Origin: Paludibacteraceae bacterium | Lineage (GTDB): Bacteria; Bacteroidota; Bacteroidia; Bacteroidales; Paludibacteraceae | Length of the DNA stretch: 64,000 nucleotides | Assembly: GCA_024693065.1 (NCBI GenBank) | Contig: JAILLP010000023.1 | Span: 124,001 to 188,000, forward strand | Direction: 5' to 3' | Shown here: piece by piece, positions 49,394-64,000 of the stretch | Layout: each line of letters begins with the position of its first letter | How positions within the stretch are numbered: the first letter of the stretch is position 1 | Position numbers and translations under genes: made by a program | The notes under the pieces: model-generated | What the model was told of the DNA's origin: nothing | Seen by the model: only the letters and a program-made list of their open reading frames with translations | The model's database searches: none

Positions 49394-50845
49394 GTGGGTT
49401 TAAAACAAAGTGTCGTAAGTGGAGCTATATGGACAGGGCTTGAAAAAGTCTTGACCCAGGTAGTCCATTTTGTCATTGGTGTTATATTGGCTCGCATCTT
49501 ATCCCCTGGTGATTATGGTGTGGTTGGAATGTTGACTATTTTTATTGCGATAGCCAATGTTTTTACTGATAGTGGATTGTCTAGTGCATTGATTCAAAAA
49601 AAGGATCGGACCGACACTGATTATTCCACTATTTTTTATTTCAATCTACTGGTGGCTGTCTTCTTTTATTGCTTGTTGTTTGTGACATCTCCGCTCATTG
49701 CGGATTTTTATAACATGCCGATTTTAAAGGATGTGACGAGGATTGTCGCCCTCTCGTTGATAATAACAGGTTTTACAGCCGTACAAAGTACCCGATTACG
49801 TATCAATCTGCAATTTAGGAAATTGTCCGTAATCACAATCTCAGGAATGTTAGTGACGGGAGCGACAGGTCTGGTTCTTGCCTTTAATGGTTTTGGCGTA
49901 TGGGCTTTGGTTATTCAGACGATTGCCGGGAATCTGTTTTGCTCTGTATGCATTTGGTATGTCGCTAAATGGCGGCCAAGTCTTGTGTTCTCGAAGGAAT
50001 CGTTTAAAAGTTTGTGGGGAGTTGGCTCCAAGCTTTTGGGCTCAAGTTTGATTAACACTTTGTACAGTAATATGTATACACTTGTGATAGGAAAGTCTTT
50101 TTCCAAGGAACAGGTGGGATATTATAATAGGGGTAATCAATATGCGTTACTGCCAATGCAGTCTGTGCAGGACATGGCTGTAAAAGTGAATTTCCCTGTT
50201 CTGTCAAAACTTCAGGATGACGACGAACGCTTAATTTCCGCATACAAAAAACTGATGACGGTTCCGTTGTATCTACTTTATCCTATTTTAGTCGGATTGG
50301 CTGTCATCGCTCCCTATCTAATCCCTGTGATGATCGGGGAGAAGTGGATTCCTTGTGTGCCTGTGTTGCAGGTTCTTTGTATCGGATATATGCTAAGCCC
50401 GTTGACAAGTTTGAATCTTAATCTATTGTATGTGAAAGGGCGTACGGATTTGGTTCTGAAACTGGAGTTCTTTAAGAAACCGATCGGTTTCCTCATCCTA
50501 TTCCTGAGTATTCCTTTGGGTTTGATCGGAATGGTGGTGGGAAAGGCCTTCTACGAGTTTGTCGCCTTTTCGTTTAACTGCTATTATACAAAGAAATTTT
50601 ACGATTATGGTGAGTGGAAACAATTGAAGGCTTTGCTGCCGATTGTGGTTAATTGCGTCATCATGGCAGTGCTGGTCTATATTTCCATGTATTTCGTGGA
50701 ATCTTATTTGGTAAAGATTTGTGTGGGTATCCCTGTGGGGATTATTTCATATCTGATGTTGTCCATTGTTTTCGGAGATGAAAATTATAAGGAACTGAAA
50801 AGTATTATTTGGGGGAAATTACATAAGTCGGATTCTGAGAATTGA
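49394..50845 (+). CDS. Polysaccharide flippase (Wzx-type)
   Basis: A membrane protein of 483 residues with about twelve hydrophobic segments. The start appears to be GTG at 49394, just after the LicD stop. The beginning (MGLKQSVVSGAIWTGLEKV) and the segment ILARILSPGDYGVVGMLTIF are typical of the polysaccharide transport (PST) branch near WzxC. It should flip lipid-linked repeat units across the inner membrane. It lies between LicD and an acyltransferase. Confidence 0.93.
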   Translation: MGLKQSVVSGAIWTGLEKVLTQVVHFVIGVILARILSPGDYGVVGMLTIFIAIANVFTDSGLSSALIQKKDRTDTDYSTIFYFNLLVAVFFYCLLFVTSPLIADFYNMPILKDVTRIVALSLIITGFTAVQSTRLRINLQFRKLSVITISGMLVTGATGLVLAFNGFGVWALVIQTIAGNLFCSVCIWYVAKWRPSLVFSKESFKSLWGVGSKLLGSSLINTLYSNMYTLVIGKSFSKEQVGYYNRGNQYALLPMQSVQDMAVKVNFPVLSKLQDDDERLISAYKKLMTVPLYLLYPILVGLAVIAPYLIPVMIGEKWIPCVPVLQVLCIGYMLSPLTSLNLNLLYVKGRTDLVLKLEFFKKPIGFLILFLSIPLGLIGMVVGKAFYEFVAFSFNCYYTKKFYDYGEWKQLKALLPIVVNCVIMAVLVYISMYFVESYLVKICVGIPVGIISYLMLSIVFGDENYKELKSIIWGKLHKSDSEN

Positions 50846-58899: not shown

Positions 58900-59853
58900 A
58901 TGGTCGTATCTATTGTTATAGTATGCATGAATAATCTCAAGAATCTGTATTTGTGCTTAGATAGTATTAAAAAGAATACAAATGTAGATTATGAGGTCTT
59001 TGTTGTTGCATATTTGTTCAGTAAGGAGAATCTCCAAAAAGCGAAATCTGATTATGACTGGGTGAATTTTATAGAGAGTGATGAGATCAGGGGCTTTTCT
59101 GAAAATAACAATTTGGCATTACGACAGGCGAAAGGGGAGTATTGTTTTGTCGTGAATGATGACACGGAGATGCGTATGCCAGTCATTGACCAATTGGTCG
59201 AGACGATTAAGCGACTGCCTGAGGATGTCGCAATTGTCAGCCCGAAATTGATTAATCCGGATGGATCCTCTCAGGTTTGCGGCAGGGCGTATTTGGATTG
59301 GTGGATAAACATGAGGAGCGATTGGGGTTTTAAAGACAAACAAAACATAGCGAAATATTGTAACAAACAGGGTGTGTTCCAATCGTATAATATTGTTGGG
59401 GCTGCCTTCCTGATAAAAACTGAGTTGTTTAGAAAAATAGGTTGGTTTGATGAGACCTATTTCTTTTGCCCTGAGGATATTGCGGTGTCGGATACATTGA
59501 ATAGGTTGGGGTACAAGTGCTATGTGAATGCCGATGTGGAGATCATACATTATGAGGGCATGTCGGGTAAGTCTTTGTCTATGGTGCAAACGGCCACTCG
59601 TCCCGCGCATGCCAAAGGCGGTGTGATTTTCTATTCTCATGGGAATAGATTCCTGTTCTATTTTTTGTCAGTATATTACTTCGTACATTTCTCCTTACGG
59701 TTTATTTATCATAGGATAAAGGGACTTTTAAAGGAAAGGCCTAACGTGGATTATATCCTTTCCATTGGAGACATGAATGTTTGTCGCACTATTTTGACAA
59801 AGAAAACGCCTAAGGAGATTTTCATAGAATGTTATAATAAGTTGAAAAAATAA
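58900..59853 (+). CDS. Glycosyltransferase family 2, rhamnosyltransferase-like
   Basis: A protein of 317 residues with VVSIVIVCMNNLKNLYLCLDSI at the N-terminus, the metal motif VVNDDTEM near residue 85, and FDETYFFCPEDIAVSDTLNRLGY. The tail has a hydrophobic segment (FLFYFLSVYYFVHFSLRF) that could attach it to the membrane. It is the last gene of the run that began at 44336. A promoter element lies 32 bp after its stop. Confidence 0.9.
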   Translation: MVVSIVIVCMNNLKNLYLCLDSIKKNTNVDYEVFVVAYLFSKENLQKAKSDYDWVNFIESDEIRGFSENNNLALRQAKGEYCFVVNDDTEMRMPVIDQLVETIKRLPEDVAIVSPKLINPDGSSQVCGRAYLDWWINMRSDWGFKDKQNIAKYCNKQGVFQSYNIVGAAFLIKTELFRKIGWFDETYFFCPEDIAVSDTLNRLGYKCYVNADVEIIHYEGMSGKSLSMVQTATRPAHAKGGVIFYSHGNRFLFYFLSVYYFVHFSLRFIYHRIKGLLKERPNVDYILSIGDMNVCRTILTKKTPKEIFIECYNKLKK

Positions 59854-59884: not shown

Positions 59885-59892
59885 TATTTTTG
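59885..59892 (+). promoter_or_regulatory. Candidate -7 element of the CDP-precursor block
   Basis: TATTTTTG matches TAnnTTTG and lies 22 bp before the ATG at 59914. The nearest TTTG, at 59869-59872, is only 12 bp upstream, so the -33 part is unclear. Confidence 0.45.
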
Positions 59893-59913
59893 TCTTATAA
59901 TTAATGACAAGTT

Positions 59914-61017
59914 ATGAATAACTGCGATATTATAGGAGACGAACAACTTCTCAAGCAATACTATAGCCGTTATGGTGGCTATTGGCGTTTCCCTGACATG
60001 TTAGATTATTGTTATTTGGTGAATCCTTATTTCAATCAGTCTGCGATTATAAAGGAAATGCAAGATTTTTTCCCTATCTTGGTAAGTGAATATCCGTCCG
60101 GCATGAGAGTGAATGCAGAACTGGCAAGTGAATGTTGGCAGGTAAAACCCGAGCATATTGTTGTGGGCAATGGGGCGGCTGAACTGATTAAGGTCATGAT
60201 GGAATCTCAGGAAGGGAAGGTTGGAGTGGTTCGTCCTACGTTTGAGGAATATCCTAATCGTATGTCGGAGGATAAAGTGATTACTTTTGTGCCTCAAAAC
60301 GCCACTTTCCGTTATGATGCAGACGATCTTATCGGATTTTTTGGCAAGAACCATATCGATACGCTTCTTTTGATTAATCCTGATAATCCATCTGGAAATT
60401 TTATTCAGATGGAGGGTGTACATAAATTGGCATCATGGTGCGAAACAAAAGGAATACGTTTTATCCTTGATGAGAGTTTTGTGGACTTTAGCGTAGGGTA
60501 TGAACAGAATTCGTTTATCCACGAGGAGTTTTTGAAGAAATATCCACACCTATGTGTAATAAAGTCGATTAGTAAGAGCTACGGAGTCCCTGGACTTCGA
60601 CTCGGTATCCTCTGTAGCGCAGATGAAAATCTTGTGGAGCGAATTAAAAAAAGTGTAAGTATATGGAATATCAATTCTTTCGCAGAGTTTTTCATGCAGA
60701 TATATCCGAAGTATCGAGAGGATTACAAACGTGCCTGTGACCAATTTATCCAGGAACGGGAGTGCTTTGAAATAGAACTGAAAAAGATACCATTTATCAA
60801 GGTTATGCCGTCGCAGGCAAACTTTTTTTTCCTCGAAGTATTGCCTCCATATAAGCCAAAGGAATTGTGCGCAATCTTGTTGAAGAAATATAATATTCTT
60901 GCATCTGCATGTCTTGCGAAGAAGGGTATTGAGAAAAATCGTTATATGCGCATCGCTGTCCGTAATCATGAGGATAACACTAAATTTATAAAAGCACTTA
61001 ATGAATTAGAGAGATGA
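59914..61017 (+). CDS. HisC/CobD-like PLP-dependent aminotransferase
   Basis: A protein of 367 residues of fold type I. It has VVGNGAAELIKVM, the NPDNPSG loop (155-161), D187-E188 in ILDESFVDFS, and the cofactor lysine K221 in SISKSYGVPGLRLG. The overall pattern is closest to histidinol-phosphate aminotransferases and threonine-phosphate decarboxylases (CobD), which act on phosphate-bearing substrates. No histidine or cobalamin genes are near. In this block it probably makes an amino phosphate compound used by the cytidylyltransferase. It overlaps the next gene by ATGA. Confidence 0.88.
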   Translation: MNNCDIIGDEQLLKQYYSRYGGYWRFPDMLDYCYLVNPYFNQSAIIKEMQDFFPILVSEYPSGMRVNAELASECWQVKPEHIVVGNGAAELIKVMMESQEGKVGVVRPTFEEYPNRMSEDKVITFVPQNATFRYDADDLIGFFGKNHIDTLLLINPDNPSGNFIQMEGVHKLASWCETKGIRFILDESFVDFSVGYEQNSFIHEEFLKKYPHLCVIKSISKSYGVPGLRLGILCSADENLVERIKKSVSIWNINSFAEFFMQIYPKYREDYKRACDQFIQERECFEIELKKIPFIKVMPSQANFFFLEVLPPYKPKELCAILLKKYNILASACLAKKGIEKNRYMRIAVRNHEDNTKFIKALNELER

Positions 61018-62015
61018 TAAAGGTTTGTATTTGTGGTGGAGGTTCATTAGGTCATGTGTGTGCAGGTGTACTTGCTTCTCAAAATGACGTAGAGGTAAAT
61101 CTTTATACTCAGAAACCAGAGCAATGGTCTCGACAAATAAAAGTTACAGATTTTAATGGCAAGCTTTATTGTGGTACTCTCAATGTTATCAGCAAGAATC
61201 CAGAAGAAGCTTTGCGAGACTGTGATATTGTTTTCCTTTGTCTCCCTGGTTTCGCTATAGAGAGTACGCTCTCAGCAATAAAACCATTTGTGGGTAGGGC
61301 TGTCGTTGGATCTATTGTCAGTAGCACCGGTTTTTTCTTTTTTGCTCATAATATACTTGGGAAGGATGCAAAACTGTTTGGATTTCAGCGTGTTCCATAT
61401 ATCGCACGTACGGACGAATATGGACATTCCGCAAATTTGTTGGGTTATAAATCACAAATAGCTGTTGCTGTTGAAAATGTTGATGATGTCGAGAGTTTTC
61501 GTCTTTTGGTGGAAAAACTATGGATGACGCCGACAAAACTTCTGTCTTCTTTTTTTGAAGCGTCACTTACTAATAGTAATCCAATATTGCATACAGGACG
61601 GTTATACTCTATGTGGAAAGATTGGAACGGTGAGGTATATGACCATTTAATTCTTTTTTACAAAGAGTGGACTGTTGAGGCAAGTCAGATCCTGATAGAT
61701 ATGGATGAAGAATTTATGCGGGTTTTAGATGTCCTTCCTGTAAAAAAAGGAGCGATACCATCTTTGTTGGAATATTATGAAAGCCATGATGCAGAAAGCC
61801 TATGTAAAAAAATAAGTGGTATTCCTGCATTTCAGGGAATTACATCTCCAATGAAAAAAGTCGAAAACGGATGGGTCCCTGATTTCCAATCAAGATATTT
61901 CACAGAAGATTTCCCTTTTGGACTTTATTTTATAAAGCAAACTGCCATGGAAAATGGAGTTTCTACTCCAACAATTGATAAGGTTTTCGCATGGGGAATT
62001 AGTAAATGTAAATAG
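61014..62015 (+). CDS. NAD/NADP octopine/nopaline dehydrogenase-family enzyme
   Basis: A protein of 333 residues. The N-terminal Rossmann motif CICGGGSLGHVCAG (5-18) resembles glycerol-3-phosphate and opine dehydrogenases. The C-terminal domain has SLTNSNPILHTGRLYSMW, with N189 and H193 as the family's N-x3-H catalytic pair. Opine dehydrogenases join an amine to a keto acid by reduction. In this locus the product would be an N-carboxyalkyl amine. The substrate is unknown. It overlaps the PLP enzyme and precedes the cytidylyltransferase by 11 bp. Confidence 0.88.
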   Translation: MIKVCICGGGSLGHVCAGVLASQNDVEVNLYTQKPEQWSRQIKVTDFNGKLYCGTLNVISKNPEEALRDCDIVFLCLPGFAIESTLSAIKPFVGRAVVGSIVSSTGFFFFAHNILGKDAKLFGFQRVPYIARTDEYGHSANLLGYKSQIAVAVENVDDVESFRLLVEKLWMTPTKLLSSFFEASLTNSNPILHTGRLYSMWKDWNGEVYDHLILFYKEWTVEASQILIDMDEEFMRVLDVLPVKKGAIPSLLEYYESHDAESLCKKISGIPAFQGITSPMKKVENGWVPDFQSRYFTEDFPFGLYFIKQTAMENGVSTPTIDKVFAWGISKCK

Positions 62016-62026
62016 TATTTAGCGAT

Positions 62027-63190
62027 ATGTCACATATAAAAACAGCGAAAGGATTTCTTGAGTATAAAAGCGAACTTCTCTACTTCGGTGACAAAGTAAT
62101 AGACAAAGAGAAGATGCTTGATAATCTGCAGGTGCTTTCAGCATATTTAGATAAAATAGATATTAATTGGGGGCCTGCGTTTGGTACGCTCATTGGTATA
62201 GTTCGAAATGATGATTTTCAACCTTGGAAACCCGTATTTGATATCTATATCCTTAAGGAAGACGAGGAACGATTCAAAGATATTCTTTGGCTTTTAAAGG
62301 AGGTCGATTTTGAATTAGTACGCTACGAACGCAGAGGCTTATATTATCTGAAAAGAAATTCTGAATATATTAAAGTTTTTGTGCTTCATAAGATTAGTAG
62401 CGACGTACGTCATACCGGTGGGTCTGATTTTATTCATGAAAAATATCTGCAGAACACAGTCAAATGGGACTTTAAAGGAATAGACTTGAATGTGCCGCAG
62501 GAAGTGGACGAATATTTAACTTTCCAATATGGAGACTGGGAAATTCCTAAGCAGACGGTTAAATATTCAAATAATATTTTCTCATATATCTCTTACTGTT
62601 TGCAAATTAAGTGTCAGGATTTGATGCCAGATAGCCTTTATTATTTATGGCTGTTGATGCACAGACGTAAGGATTTTAAGAAGTTTAAGCTCCGTTGTGA
62701 GAAAGCAGGAATAAAAATGCCGACCAATCTCCAACTTTCAAGCATGAGACCTCGTAAATATAAAAAGGTTTTAACTGTTGGAGTCTACGATCTGTTGCAT
62801 AAGGGGCATGTGGAACTTTACAGAAGAGCCAAAGGTTTAGGCGATTATTTGATTGTGGCAGCACAAGATAGTGATTTCATATTGAAGTATAAACCGACGG
62901 CAAAAGTCCTGAATTCTACGGAAGATCGCAAATATATGATTAAGGCTATACGTTATGTTGATGAAGTTGTGACTTATACTGATGTCGACAAAATAGTCAA
63001 GGAATTAGATTTTGATGTTTTTGTAACAGGTCCGGACCAATGTCATGAAGGATTTCAACGCGCTATCCAATGGTGTGAAGAGCATGGTAAGGAGCATCTT
63101 GTTCTAGGAAGAACAGAAGGGGTTTCTTCTTCTGAGCTGAAAGCTAGGATAGCTGCTAAGACAGGAGAGAATAAGAAAATTTCAAAATAG
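62027..63190 (+). CDS. Degenerate LicD-like domain fused to a TagD-type cytidylyltransferase
   Basis: A protein of 387 residues with two parts. Residues about 25-200 resemble LicD: GPAFGTLIGIVRNDDFQPW at 49-67 and VPQEVDEYLTFQYGDWEIP at 157-174. The catalytic aspartates are largely lost, because the expected DDDID reads KPVFD (68-72). Residues 247-380 are a nucleotidyltransferase with HKGH at 258-261 in VGVYDLLHKGHVELY and RTEGVSSS at 362-369, as in glycerol-3-phosphate and ethanolamine-phosphate cytidylyltransferases. It should attach CMP to a phosphorylated small molecule. The fusion hints that the LicD-like part positions or binds the acceptor or substrate. Confidence 0.88.
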   Translation: MSHIKTAKGFLEYKSELLYFGDKVIDKEKMLDNLQVLSAYLDKIDINWGPAFGTLIGIVRNDDFQPWKPVFDIYILKEDEERFKDILWLLKEVDFELVRYERRGLYYLKRNSEYIKVFVLHKISSDVRHTGGSDFIHEKYLQNTVKWDFKGIDLNVPQEVDEYLTFQYGDWEIPKQTVKYSNNIFSYISYCLQIKCQDLMPDSLYYLWLLMHRRKDFKKFKLRCEKAGIKMPTNLQLSSMRPRKYKKVLTVGVYDLLHKGHVELYRRAKGLGDYLIVAAQDSDFILKYKPTAKVLNSTEDRKYMIKAIRYVDEVVTYTDVDKIVKELDFDVFVTGPDQCHEGFQRAIQWCEEHGKEHLVLGRTEGVSSSELKARIAAKTGENKKISK

Positions 63191-63262
63191 AATATAGGGA
63201 CTAGTTGTATTTCGTTTTTATGTTTGGTTCTATAAATTCTTATGCGTTAAATTATTGAATTT

Positions 63263-64000
63263 ATGAAAGAAATTTCAATAGATGAATCAAAACGTATTCA
63301 GGTGGATATATTAAAGTTGATTCATGAATATTGTTGCAATAACGGTTTAAAGTACACCTTGGCCTATGGGTCTATGCTGGGGGCTGTACGTCATAAGGGT
63401 TTTATTCCGTGGGATGACGATATAGATATCGCAATGTTGAGGTCTGATTATGAGAAACTCATGTCGGGATTTGAGCACGATTATATAAAGATATATGATT
63501 ACAGGAAGGATGAGGAGTATTGCTATGGGTTTGCGAAGGTAATCGATACTCGTACTGTGTTGGAGGAAAATACGACAATGGCAAATTTTGGCATTGGAAT
63601 AGATGTGTTCCCCATCGATGATTTGTATGATGATGAGCAGTCTTGCAAGGACTTCATAAAGTCTATTATCCCGTTGAAAAGGAAGTATAGATACAAATTG
63701 TTGAAACCTTCCCCAAAGAATGTTTGGTGGAAGCGAATCGCAATCCGTCTAGCGGGGTTAACTGTCCTTCCGTATTCTCTGAAGGATCTTGTGGTTAAAA
63801 TCAACGATGCGGTGAAGAGCAATGGCAAGGAAAATTCCAAATATGTTGGTGTCTTGACAGGAACTGCCGTGACAGAGAAGTGTATTATGCCAAGGAAGTG
63901 GTTCGAGGAGTATTGCTCTTTGGATTTTGAATCGAATAAGTTCATGTGCATCAAGGATTTTGACGAATTTCTTACGTTCGAATATGGCGATTATATGCAG
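63263..64000 (+). CDS. LicD-family phosphotransferase, partial at the right edge
   Basis: 246 codons lie in the window and the gene continues beyond. The start ATGAAAGAAATTTCA at 63263 is the only good one. The full signature YGSMLGAVRHKGFIPWDDDIDI is present in two overlapping parts with all three lead aspartates, and FEYGDYMQ at the edge is the second conserved block. It probably uses the CDP-linked product of the preceding genes and passes the phosphorylated group to the glycan. It lies 72 bp after the fused cytidylyltransferase; the gap shows no promoter. Confidence 0.92.
   Translation, partial: MKEISIDESKRIQVDILKLIHEYCCNNGLKYTLAYGSMLGAVRHKGFIPWDDDIDIAMLRSDYEKLMSGFEHDYIKIYDYRKDEEYCYGFAKVIDTRTVLEENTTMANFGIGIDVFPIDDLYDDEQSCKDFIKSIIPLKRKYRYKLLKPSPKNVWWKRIAIRLAGLTVLPYSLKDLVVKINDAVKSNGKENSKYVGVLTGTAVTEKCIMPRKWFEEYCSLDFESNKFMCIKDFDEFLTFEYGDYMQ

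Follow-up and report, generated by a model that had tools for sequence, protein, structure and literature searches.

The DNA under study was a window of 64,000 nucleotides from the genome of a Paludibacteraceae bacterium (assembly GCA_024693065.1, contig JAILLP010000023.1, positions 124,001 to 188,000), and coordinates without a locus number are those of this window. A block of four genes, named A, B, C and D here, was located at its right end. The genes were co-directional on the + strand, and a check of the open reading frames (ORFs) in the window showed that all were in frame. The junction of A and B was an ATGA overlap, the gap between B and C was 11 bases, and that between C and D was 72 bases. 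An earlier sequence-only reading of this DNA had described four genes in this order with an ATGA overlap or short gaps, and the ORF coordinates agreed with it. The features of the block were as follows.

59914..61017, + strand: gene A, 367 amino acids, CobD/SMUL_1544-like pyridoxal 5'-phosphate (PLP) enzyme; proposed decarboxylase of O-phosphoserine or a related O-phospho amino acid (Pfam, NCBIfam, PDB search, Foldseek, tree)
61014..62015, + strand: gene B, 333 amino acids, reductase of the octopine dehydrogenase family; would use pyruvate to place an N-(1-carboxyethyl) group on the amine (Pfam, PDB search, profile alignment, QRVP motif)
62027..63190, + strand: gene C as a whole, 387 amino acids, altered LicD fused to a TagD-type cytidylyltransferase
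62027..62731, + strand: N-terminal part of C, about residues 1-235, LicD-like, with the altered acidic motif PWKPVFDIYI
62762..63154, + strand: C-terminal part of C, residues 246-376, TagD/ECT-type cytidylyltransferase with the motifs HKGH and RTEGVSSS
63263..64000 in the window, + strand: gene D, 265 amino acids, canonical LicD phosphotransferase with PWDDDIDI; its true end lies beyond the window, at the equivalent of position 64060

We propose, at a probability of roughly 60%, that the block encodes a surface-glycan tailoring pathway that would make, activate and transfer N-(1-carboxyethyl)ethanolamine phosphate. The proposal was based on the gene content, the domains, conserved adjacency and fusions, the exchange of both the cytidylyltransferase and the reductase for unrelated families, and the catalytic residues of B. 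The gene logic was well supported by these observations, and we infer the substrates and the order of the steps. The families that the sequence-only reading had assigned to A to D, including the altered LicD motif in C, were found again by Pfam and PDB searches and by motif alignment.

Gene A matched Aminotran_1_2 (PF00155) alone in Pfam. Its best NCBIfam model was that of CobD, and HisC was the next-best curated model with 133 bits. The best solved relative by sequence was 6oux (E 1e-46), which is titled SMUL_1544, decarboxylase from Sulfurospirillum multivorans. Further solved relatives were 3ftb, named HisC (113.5 bits), and Salmonella enterica CobD, 1lc5 (99.8 bits). Foldseek was performed with an AlphaFold2 model of A (mean pLDDT 89.6), and ranks 1 and 2 were taken by 6oux and rank 3 by S. 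enterica CobD. SMUL_1544 was suggested as the source of ethanolamine phosphate in a passage of PMC4585668, and a Sulfurospirillum homologue is annotated as norcobamide biosynthesis serine-O-phosphate decarboxylase. SMUL_1544 and CobD, which decarboxylate O-phospho amino acids in the cobamide loop, share their fold and sequence family with A, whereas A is located in a glycan locus. Because the source genome had one other homologue of A at E <=1e-5, with 28% identity, A is probably not the housekeeping HisC copy. The sequence-only reading had named transamination or decarboxylation for this enzyme. Of the two, decarboxylation is favoured.

Gene B gave 112 bits with Octopine_DH (PF02317) against a cut-off of 30, which placed it among proteins with a Rossmann and an octopine_DH helical domain. 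Its best solved relative was octopine dehydrogenase of the scallop Pecten maximus, 3c7a (E 5e-39). Residues were counted in 82 sequences, namely B of the window and 81 ORFs of 80 related loci described below. H193, R294 and D299 of B were aligned by profile with H212, R324 and D329 of the scallop enzyme, of which we take D329 to be the aspartate of the catalytic dyad. All three were invariant in the 82 sequences, and the His-Asp dyad and the NADH-sensing arginine were therefore retained. The substrate pocket was different. According to the part of PMC2924402 on octopine dehydrogenase, the guanidinium is held by Glu142 and Trp278, the arginine carboxyl by His212, and the NADH pyrophosphate by Arg324. 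Both guanidinium ligands were absent from B (E142 to Q125, W278 to S250), so that B did not fit octopine dehydrogenase proper by this measure. In addition, R126 of B replaced Thr143. R126 was present in 81 and Q125 in 78 of the 82 sequences. A pocket in which an acid is lost and a base is gained is what a phosphate-bearing amine would require.

Gene C was over the Pfam cut-off for both LicD (32.8 bits, cut-off 22.6) and CTP_transf_like (56.3 bits). The best solved relative of its cytidylyltransferase half was TagD 1coz (E 9.7e-20), and 2b7l and the ethanolamine-phosphate cytidylyltransferase 3elb were also matched. The LicD half of C showed PWKPVFDIYI where D has PWDDDIDIAM, so that the acidic DDDID was missing. 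The same PWKPVFDIYI was carried by the related locus L018, whose LicD domain was 75.5% identical to that of C. This suggested that the altered domain is maintained and not decaying. LicD-like proteins of about 230 amino acids that follow B in other loci were considered as degenerate in the same way and rejected, because the alignment showed that their acidic residues were kept (SYDPDIDL, PHDNDIDT). Gene D matched LicD (PF04991) with 151 bits over the full model and contained the DDDID motif. In L018, the LicD gene after the LicD-cytidylyltransferase fusion was of another subtype than D, and the transferase therefore differs between relatives. The TagD match of C and the LicD match of D could also be explained by a simple Lic- or Tag-type pathway, for phosphocholine or CDP-glycerol, with A and B as two unrelated passengers. 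We consider this extremely unlikely. C gave 76.5 bits with the TagD equivalog TIGR01518, whose cut-off is 165.4. The Lic set of a LicA choline kinase with LicC and LicD was not found, as there was no kinase among the four genes, and A and B recurred as a unit in other genomes.

This recurrence was monitored by a profile scan with the alignment of B over genome contigs of 84,980 species. The scan confirmed 422 relatives, and the counts of loci given here refer to 80 of these 422. B was 54-72% identical in the best segment across the 80 loci, two of which (L038 and L051) came from one metagenome-assembled genome (MAG). Most were MAGs of gut and rumen Bacteroidales, with some of Fibrobacter; Alloprevotella rava DSM 22548 was an isolate. 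A contig end was close to B in 16 of the loci, which lowers the neighbour counts. In 63 of the 80 loci, A was the immediate upstream neighbour of B. Of these 63, 59 had A as a fusion with a LicC-type cytidylyltransferase; the four without the fusion were L018, L020, L024 (split frame) and L052 (contig edge). A and B overlapped or touched in 38 of the 63, with a four-base overlap in 30. B was fused to LicD in 10/80 loci, a LicD domain was found within six genes of B in 55/80, and it was in a contiguous same-strand run in 45/80, fusions included. The proteins of same-strand genes immediately after B or immediately before A or B were also scanned with Pfam (83 of 96, with 13 upstream ones omitted). 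LicD was the commonest family (29/83), and two NTP-transferase families (14 and 11) and IspD-type cytidylyltransferase (11) were also matched. The LicD-cytidylyltransferase fusion of the C type was found in a single locus, L018. These results showed that the exact four-gene set is rare and that the conserved core is A and B with some cytidylyltransferase, often with LicD. One expectation of the sequence-only reading was that the genes would not lie apart in most genomes. This held for A and B.

A different arrangement was seen in ten of the 80 loci, where a free LicC gene was directly downstream of B and A was not directly upstream. One of these, L076 (9986-16824), was scanned in full and contained B, free LicC, an amidohydrolase, a fusion of LicC to a choline/ethanolamine-kinase-like domain, LicD, and a fusion of a cytidylyltransferase to a GFO/IDH oxidoreductase. 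L076 and the nine others looked like a different phospho-amine cassette with the same reductase. Judging by L076, the amine phosphate expected from A elsewhere may come from a kinase in this context. L042, of the same group, also had a LicC-CobD fusion about 2 kb downstream. In L088 (9980-12986), from a Muribaculaceae MAG, B adjoined a 667-aa sulfatase-fold protein that gave 48.8 bits with LtaS against a cut-off of 970, and neither A nor LicC was directly beside it.

The cytidylyltransferase was exchanged within this family. In the tree, A of the window formed a group with those of L018 and L020 (100/100), and this group was nested in the clade of LicC-fused proteins (100/100). The lineage of the window has therefore probably lost the LicC domain, with the cytidylyltransferase of C as its replacement. 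In the window and L018 this enzyme is part of C and unrelated to LicC; none was seen on the 7.7 kb contig of L020.

The reductase was exchanged as well. In a sample of 393 genomes of the order, searched for B at E <=1e-40 and for A at E <=1e-60, A was found in 15 genomes, nine of which were without B at these thresholds. In three of these nine stretches (L120, L122, L124), the gene after A encoded an OCD/mu-crystallin protein (PF02423), and the three proteins were 47-53% identical to one another. Tauropine dehydrogenases join pyruvate to taurine, a 2-aminoethyl acid. The OCD superfamily includes such enzymes of sponges, as stated in passages of PMC4113996 and PMC3840593. With a profile built from the three OCD proteins, neither the other six A-without-B stretches nor the 80 B loci yielded another member. 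This meant that the octopine dehydrogenase (ODH) and OCD reductases were mutually exclusive in the stretches examined. The exchange was seen between L096 (ODH) and L124 (OCD), in which A was 93% and LicD 80% identical, whereas the reductase between them belonged to a different family; the DNA similarity stopped at the end of A and resumed in LicD. As for the remaining stretches, L125 gave no LicD or reductase match. In L126 and L127, A and LicC were separate genes, and L126 also had a CDP-alcohol phosphatidyltransferase. A wider view can be put forward tentatively, and we hold it at less than even odds. The coats of Bacteroidales and Fibrobacter may share a modular opine-phosphate system with a constant decarboxylase-cytidylyltransferase core, in which two unrelated imine reductases are swapped in one slot. 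Surface epitopes might then vary, either because the carboxyethyl groups are (R) and (S) mirror images or because the keto-acid arms differ. The window would be a further remodelling with a cytidylyltransferase of unrelated fold.

Co-occurrence across genomes was also determined. In the order sample, B was present in 6/393 genomes, and all six also had A. A adjoined B in four of them, one with a split frame of A. In a sample of 150 relatives, B was found at E <=1e-20 in eight genomes, including the source genome. A adjoined B in six of the seven others and not in the weakest match (L017, 24% identity). In a class sample of 395 genomes, B was found in three and A in two, with the source genome counted in both. 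The other A of that sample was a LicC-CobD fusion adjoining LicD, without a proper B (L148).

Based on the above results, four steps are proposed. First, A would decarboxylate O-phospho-L-serine to ethanolamine phosphate. Second, B, or the OCD protein, would condense this amine with pyruvate, and the imine would be reduced by NAD(P)H to N-(1-carboxyethyl)ethanolamine phosphate. Third, the CDP derivative would be formed by the cytidylyltransferase domain of C, or by the LicC domain fused to A in most of the relatives seen. Fourth, LicD (gene D) would take the phospho-amine off its CDP carrier and attach it to a sugar in the polysaccharide of the locus. Serine phosphate and pyruvate are the presumed substrates, and the stereochemistry of the product, the role of the altered LicD domain of C and the acceptor sugar are likewise presumptive. 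B might act before or after CDP activation; the ODH-LicD fusions would fit late alkylation, on CDP-ethanolamine. The sequence-only reading had suggested an amino phosphate, N-alkylation with a keto acid, CDP activation and LicD transfer in this order. That hedged order gained support from the adjacency of A and B, the A-LicC and B-LicD fusions and the OCD swap.

Several results weigh against this proposal, and those on A are given first. A gave 162 bits with the CobD model TIGR01140, whose equivalog cut-off is 290, so that it is not a member of CobD by this measure. In the tree, it was grouped with the serine-phosphate decarboxylase with weak support (87/77, on a long branch). The position of CobD R323 was serine in A of the window, L018 and L020, and lysine or arginine in the other 11 rows of the alignment. 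Because of this serine, the substrate of A in this subclade may differ. The same logic could then apply to a different amine, made from another O-phospho amino acid or by transamination of a keto-phosphate (aminopropanol phosphate from threonine phosphate, for example, or serinol phosphate from dihydroxyacetone phosphate), and the N-carboxyalkyl derivative of another amino-alcohol phosphate would be transferred. The similar scores of 3ftb and 1lc5 after 6oux also point this way. The best match by sequence and fold is nevertheless SMUL_1544, which is tied to ethanolamine phosphate, and no threonine-kinase-type gene was seen among the scanned genes of the window, the scan covering the window and not the rest of the genome. 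We rate a different amine as rather unlikely, though not negligible.

The results on B that weigh against the proposal concern its neighbours. In 7/80 loci, B had no A immediately upstream and no LicC immediately downstream. A and B were on different contigs in two of the six B genomes of the order sample (G763, G668), and neither of the two distant class-level homologues of B that were inspected adjoined A. A Paraburkholderia homologue also had the QRVP motif, and its annotated neighbours included no gene of the A or LicC type. B could act elsewhere. In that case A, C and D would attach plain phosphoethanolamine, and B would carboxyethylate an unrelated amine in the same glycan, such as that of an amino sugar or an amino acid. 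The A-without-B stretches L119, L121 and L123, in which LicC-CobD adjoins LicD with no match to B or OCD, are consistent with this. Opine-like groups on O-antigen sugars are also known, namely alanopine and N-epsilon-carboxyethyl-lysine, as mentioned in part of PMC10609480. The overlap or contact of A and B in 38/63 loci, the B-LicD fusions in 10/80, and the presence of A in 6/6 B genomes of the order sample argue for a shared function instead, and a separate role of B was judged distinctly unlikely.

Returning to the carboxyethyl-ethanolamine proposal, the literature offered related systems and no copy. A described pathway with this gene set was not found among the searched open-licence papers, in line with the sequence-only reading, which knew of none; this is weak evidence, as it covers open-licence papers only. 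None of these papers combined octopine dehydrogenase with LicD. The Lic pathway (LicA-LicB-LicC-LicD), which places phosphocholine on lipopolysaccharide or teichoic acid, resembles the proposal in that a small amine phosphate is activated as a CDP derivative and transferred by LicD, and its LicC-type domain is the one fused to A in 59/80 loci. It differs in that choline import and a kinase provide the amine phosphate, whereas a PLP enzyme would do so here, and an opine-type reductase is added. The cytidylyltransferase of the window is also TagD-type and fused to an altered LicD. The closest published logic found was the Pnt pathway, in which PntC is fused to a 2-aminoethylphosphonate (AEP) transaminase (6pd1), so that a cytidylyltransferase is joined to the PLP enzyme making its amine substrate, as described in part of PMC6697681. 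The block can be seen as a new version of the Lic and Pnt logic of surface tailoring. The resemblance of the LicC and PLP-enzyme fusion to PntC raised the possibility that the activated group is AEP or a derivative of it. A plasmid of Bradyrhizobium sp. 187 (L154, 4753-8737), on which phosphoenolpyruvate (PEP) mutase, LicC and CDP-alcohol phosphatidyltransferase genes adjoin a CobD-like gene, may encode such a phosphonate pathway with a CobD-type enzyme. For the block, a phosphonate route was rejected as very unlikely, because no PEP mutase was over the Pfam cut-off in the source genome (one match, 20.7 bits against 31.5). In addition, the PLP domain of A is CobD-type and not class V. The proposed reductive alkylation is a further difference from the Pnt pathway.

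The proposed product itself has a chemical precedent. It would be the N-[(R)-1-carboxyethyl]ethanolamine phosphate (R-Cet-EtnP) of the Proteus mirabilis O-polysaccharide, or its stereoisomer. We take this decoration to belong to P. mirabilis serogroup O14. R-Cet-EtnP is defined in a figure legend, for a figure on Klebsiella and P. mirabilis, and in the glossary of a review of Proteus and Klebsiella polysaccharides (PMC9630907). It is chemically known, but no genes were assigned to it in the literature searched. Genes for a carboxyethyl-ethanolamine product or matching Proteus O-antigen clusters were not named in titles or abstract openings of the open-licence literature. A survey of 60 Proteus O-antigen clusters, O14 included, calls O14-type clusters relatively simple in its main text, and ethanolamine, opine, carboxyethyl and licD are not mentioned there, figures and supplements being outside the scope (PMC5560731). 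This silence also speaks against our proposal, since it leaves the known R-Cet-EtnP decoration not tied to such genes. For P. mirabilis O18, licABCD is described for phosphocholine in a passage of PMC8027243.

A plasmid collection was also searched. Two Proteus records matched B, and the one inspected, from P. mirabilis (L137), had KDVP and not QRVP, with no A, LicC or LicD match in the stretch. A Serratia plasmid cluster with the same KDVP motif contained a gene for a TonB-dependent siderophore receptor. The Proteus hit was rejected as a direct test of the proposal, and both clusters were taken as probably opine-metallophore-type. On a plasmid of Rhizobium sp. 007 (L135, 942-10003), one run combined LicC and CobD-like genes with those for a CDP-alcohol phosphatidyltransferase, a methyltransferase and an opine dehydrogenase, with an IS6 transposase between, possibly for an opine-modified lipid or phosphodiester. 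It was rejected as a cross-phylum match, which counts as a further point against the proposal; its reductase has KDAP in place of QRVP, and it may not make the same product. Plasmid pERA53 of Erwinia rhapontici (L136, 7980-16448) carried a LicC-CobD fusion; after it came genes for a CDP-alcohol phosphatidyltransferase, a pair of HAD-type proteins, an SDR and an ATP-grasp enzyme. This looked like a cluster for a phosphodiester or phospho-amine small molecule.

The block is located in a surface-polysaccharide locus. Upstream of it were a Wzx-type export protein, a UDP-sugar dehydrogenase, UDP-galactopyranose mutase and glycosyltransferases. Downstream, a radical-SAM/SPASM protein and a GDP-mannose dehydratase were identified by Pfam, and glycosyltransferase-like and acyltransferase-like genes were recognized by eye from their sequences. 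The radical-SAM/SPASM protein is encoded past the end of the window, within this polysaccharide locus (L009, 4317-5525). The features upstream of A were as follows.

49394..50845, + strand: Wzx-type polysaccharide export protein (Polysacc_synt_3), upstream context
58900..59853, + strand: GT2 glycosyltransferase, directly upstream of the block
59885..59892, + strand: -7-like Bacteroidetes element TATTTTTG, 5' of A, TAnnTTTG-like, a weak promoter candidate

The last of these had been read as the block's own -7 element. The pattern was present at 59885, but the + strand of the window carried 40 copies of it, and the paired -33/-7 promoter pattern did not match at this site. A private promoter for the block was set aside because the TAnnTTTG pattern is too frequent to count.

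If the proposal is true, the block would provide genes that can be tested directly for the synthesis of N-(1-carboxyethyl)ethanolamine phosphate, which has been reported chemically on bacterial polysaccharides. Three families that are rarely grouped, a cobamide-type decarboxylase, an opine dehydrogenase and LicD, would be joined in one pathway. The natural swap of two unrelated reductases would serve as a test of the stereochemical control of a surface epitope. In addition, many Bacteroidales of the gut and rumen, and some Fibrobacter, would be predicted to bear a charged coat decoration that combines amine, acid and phosphate.

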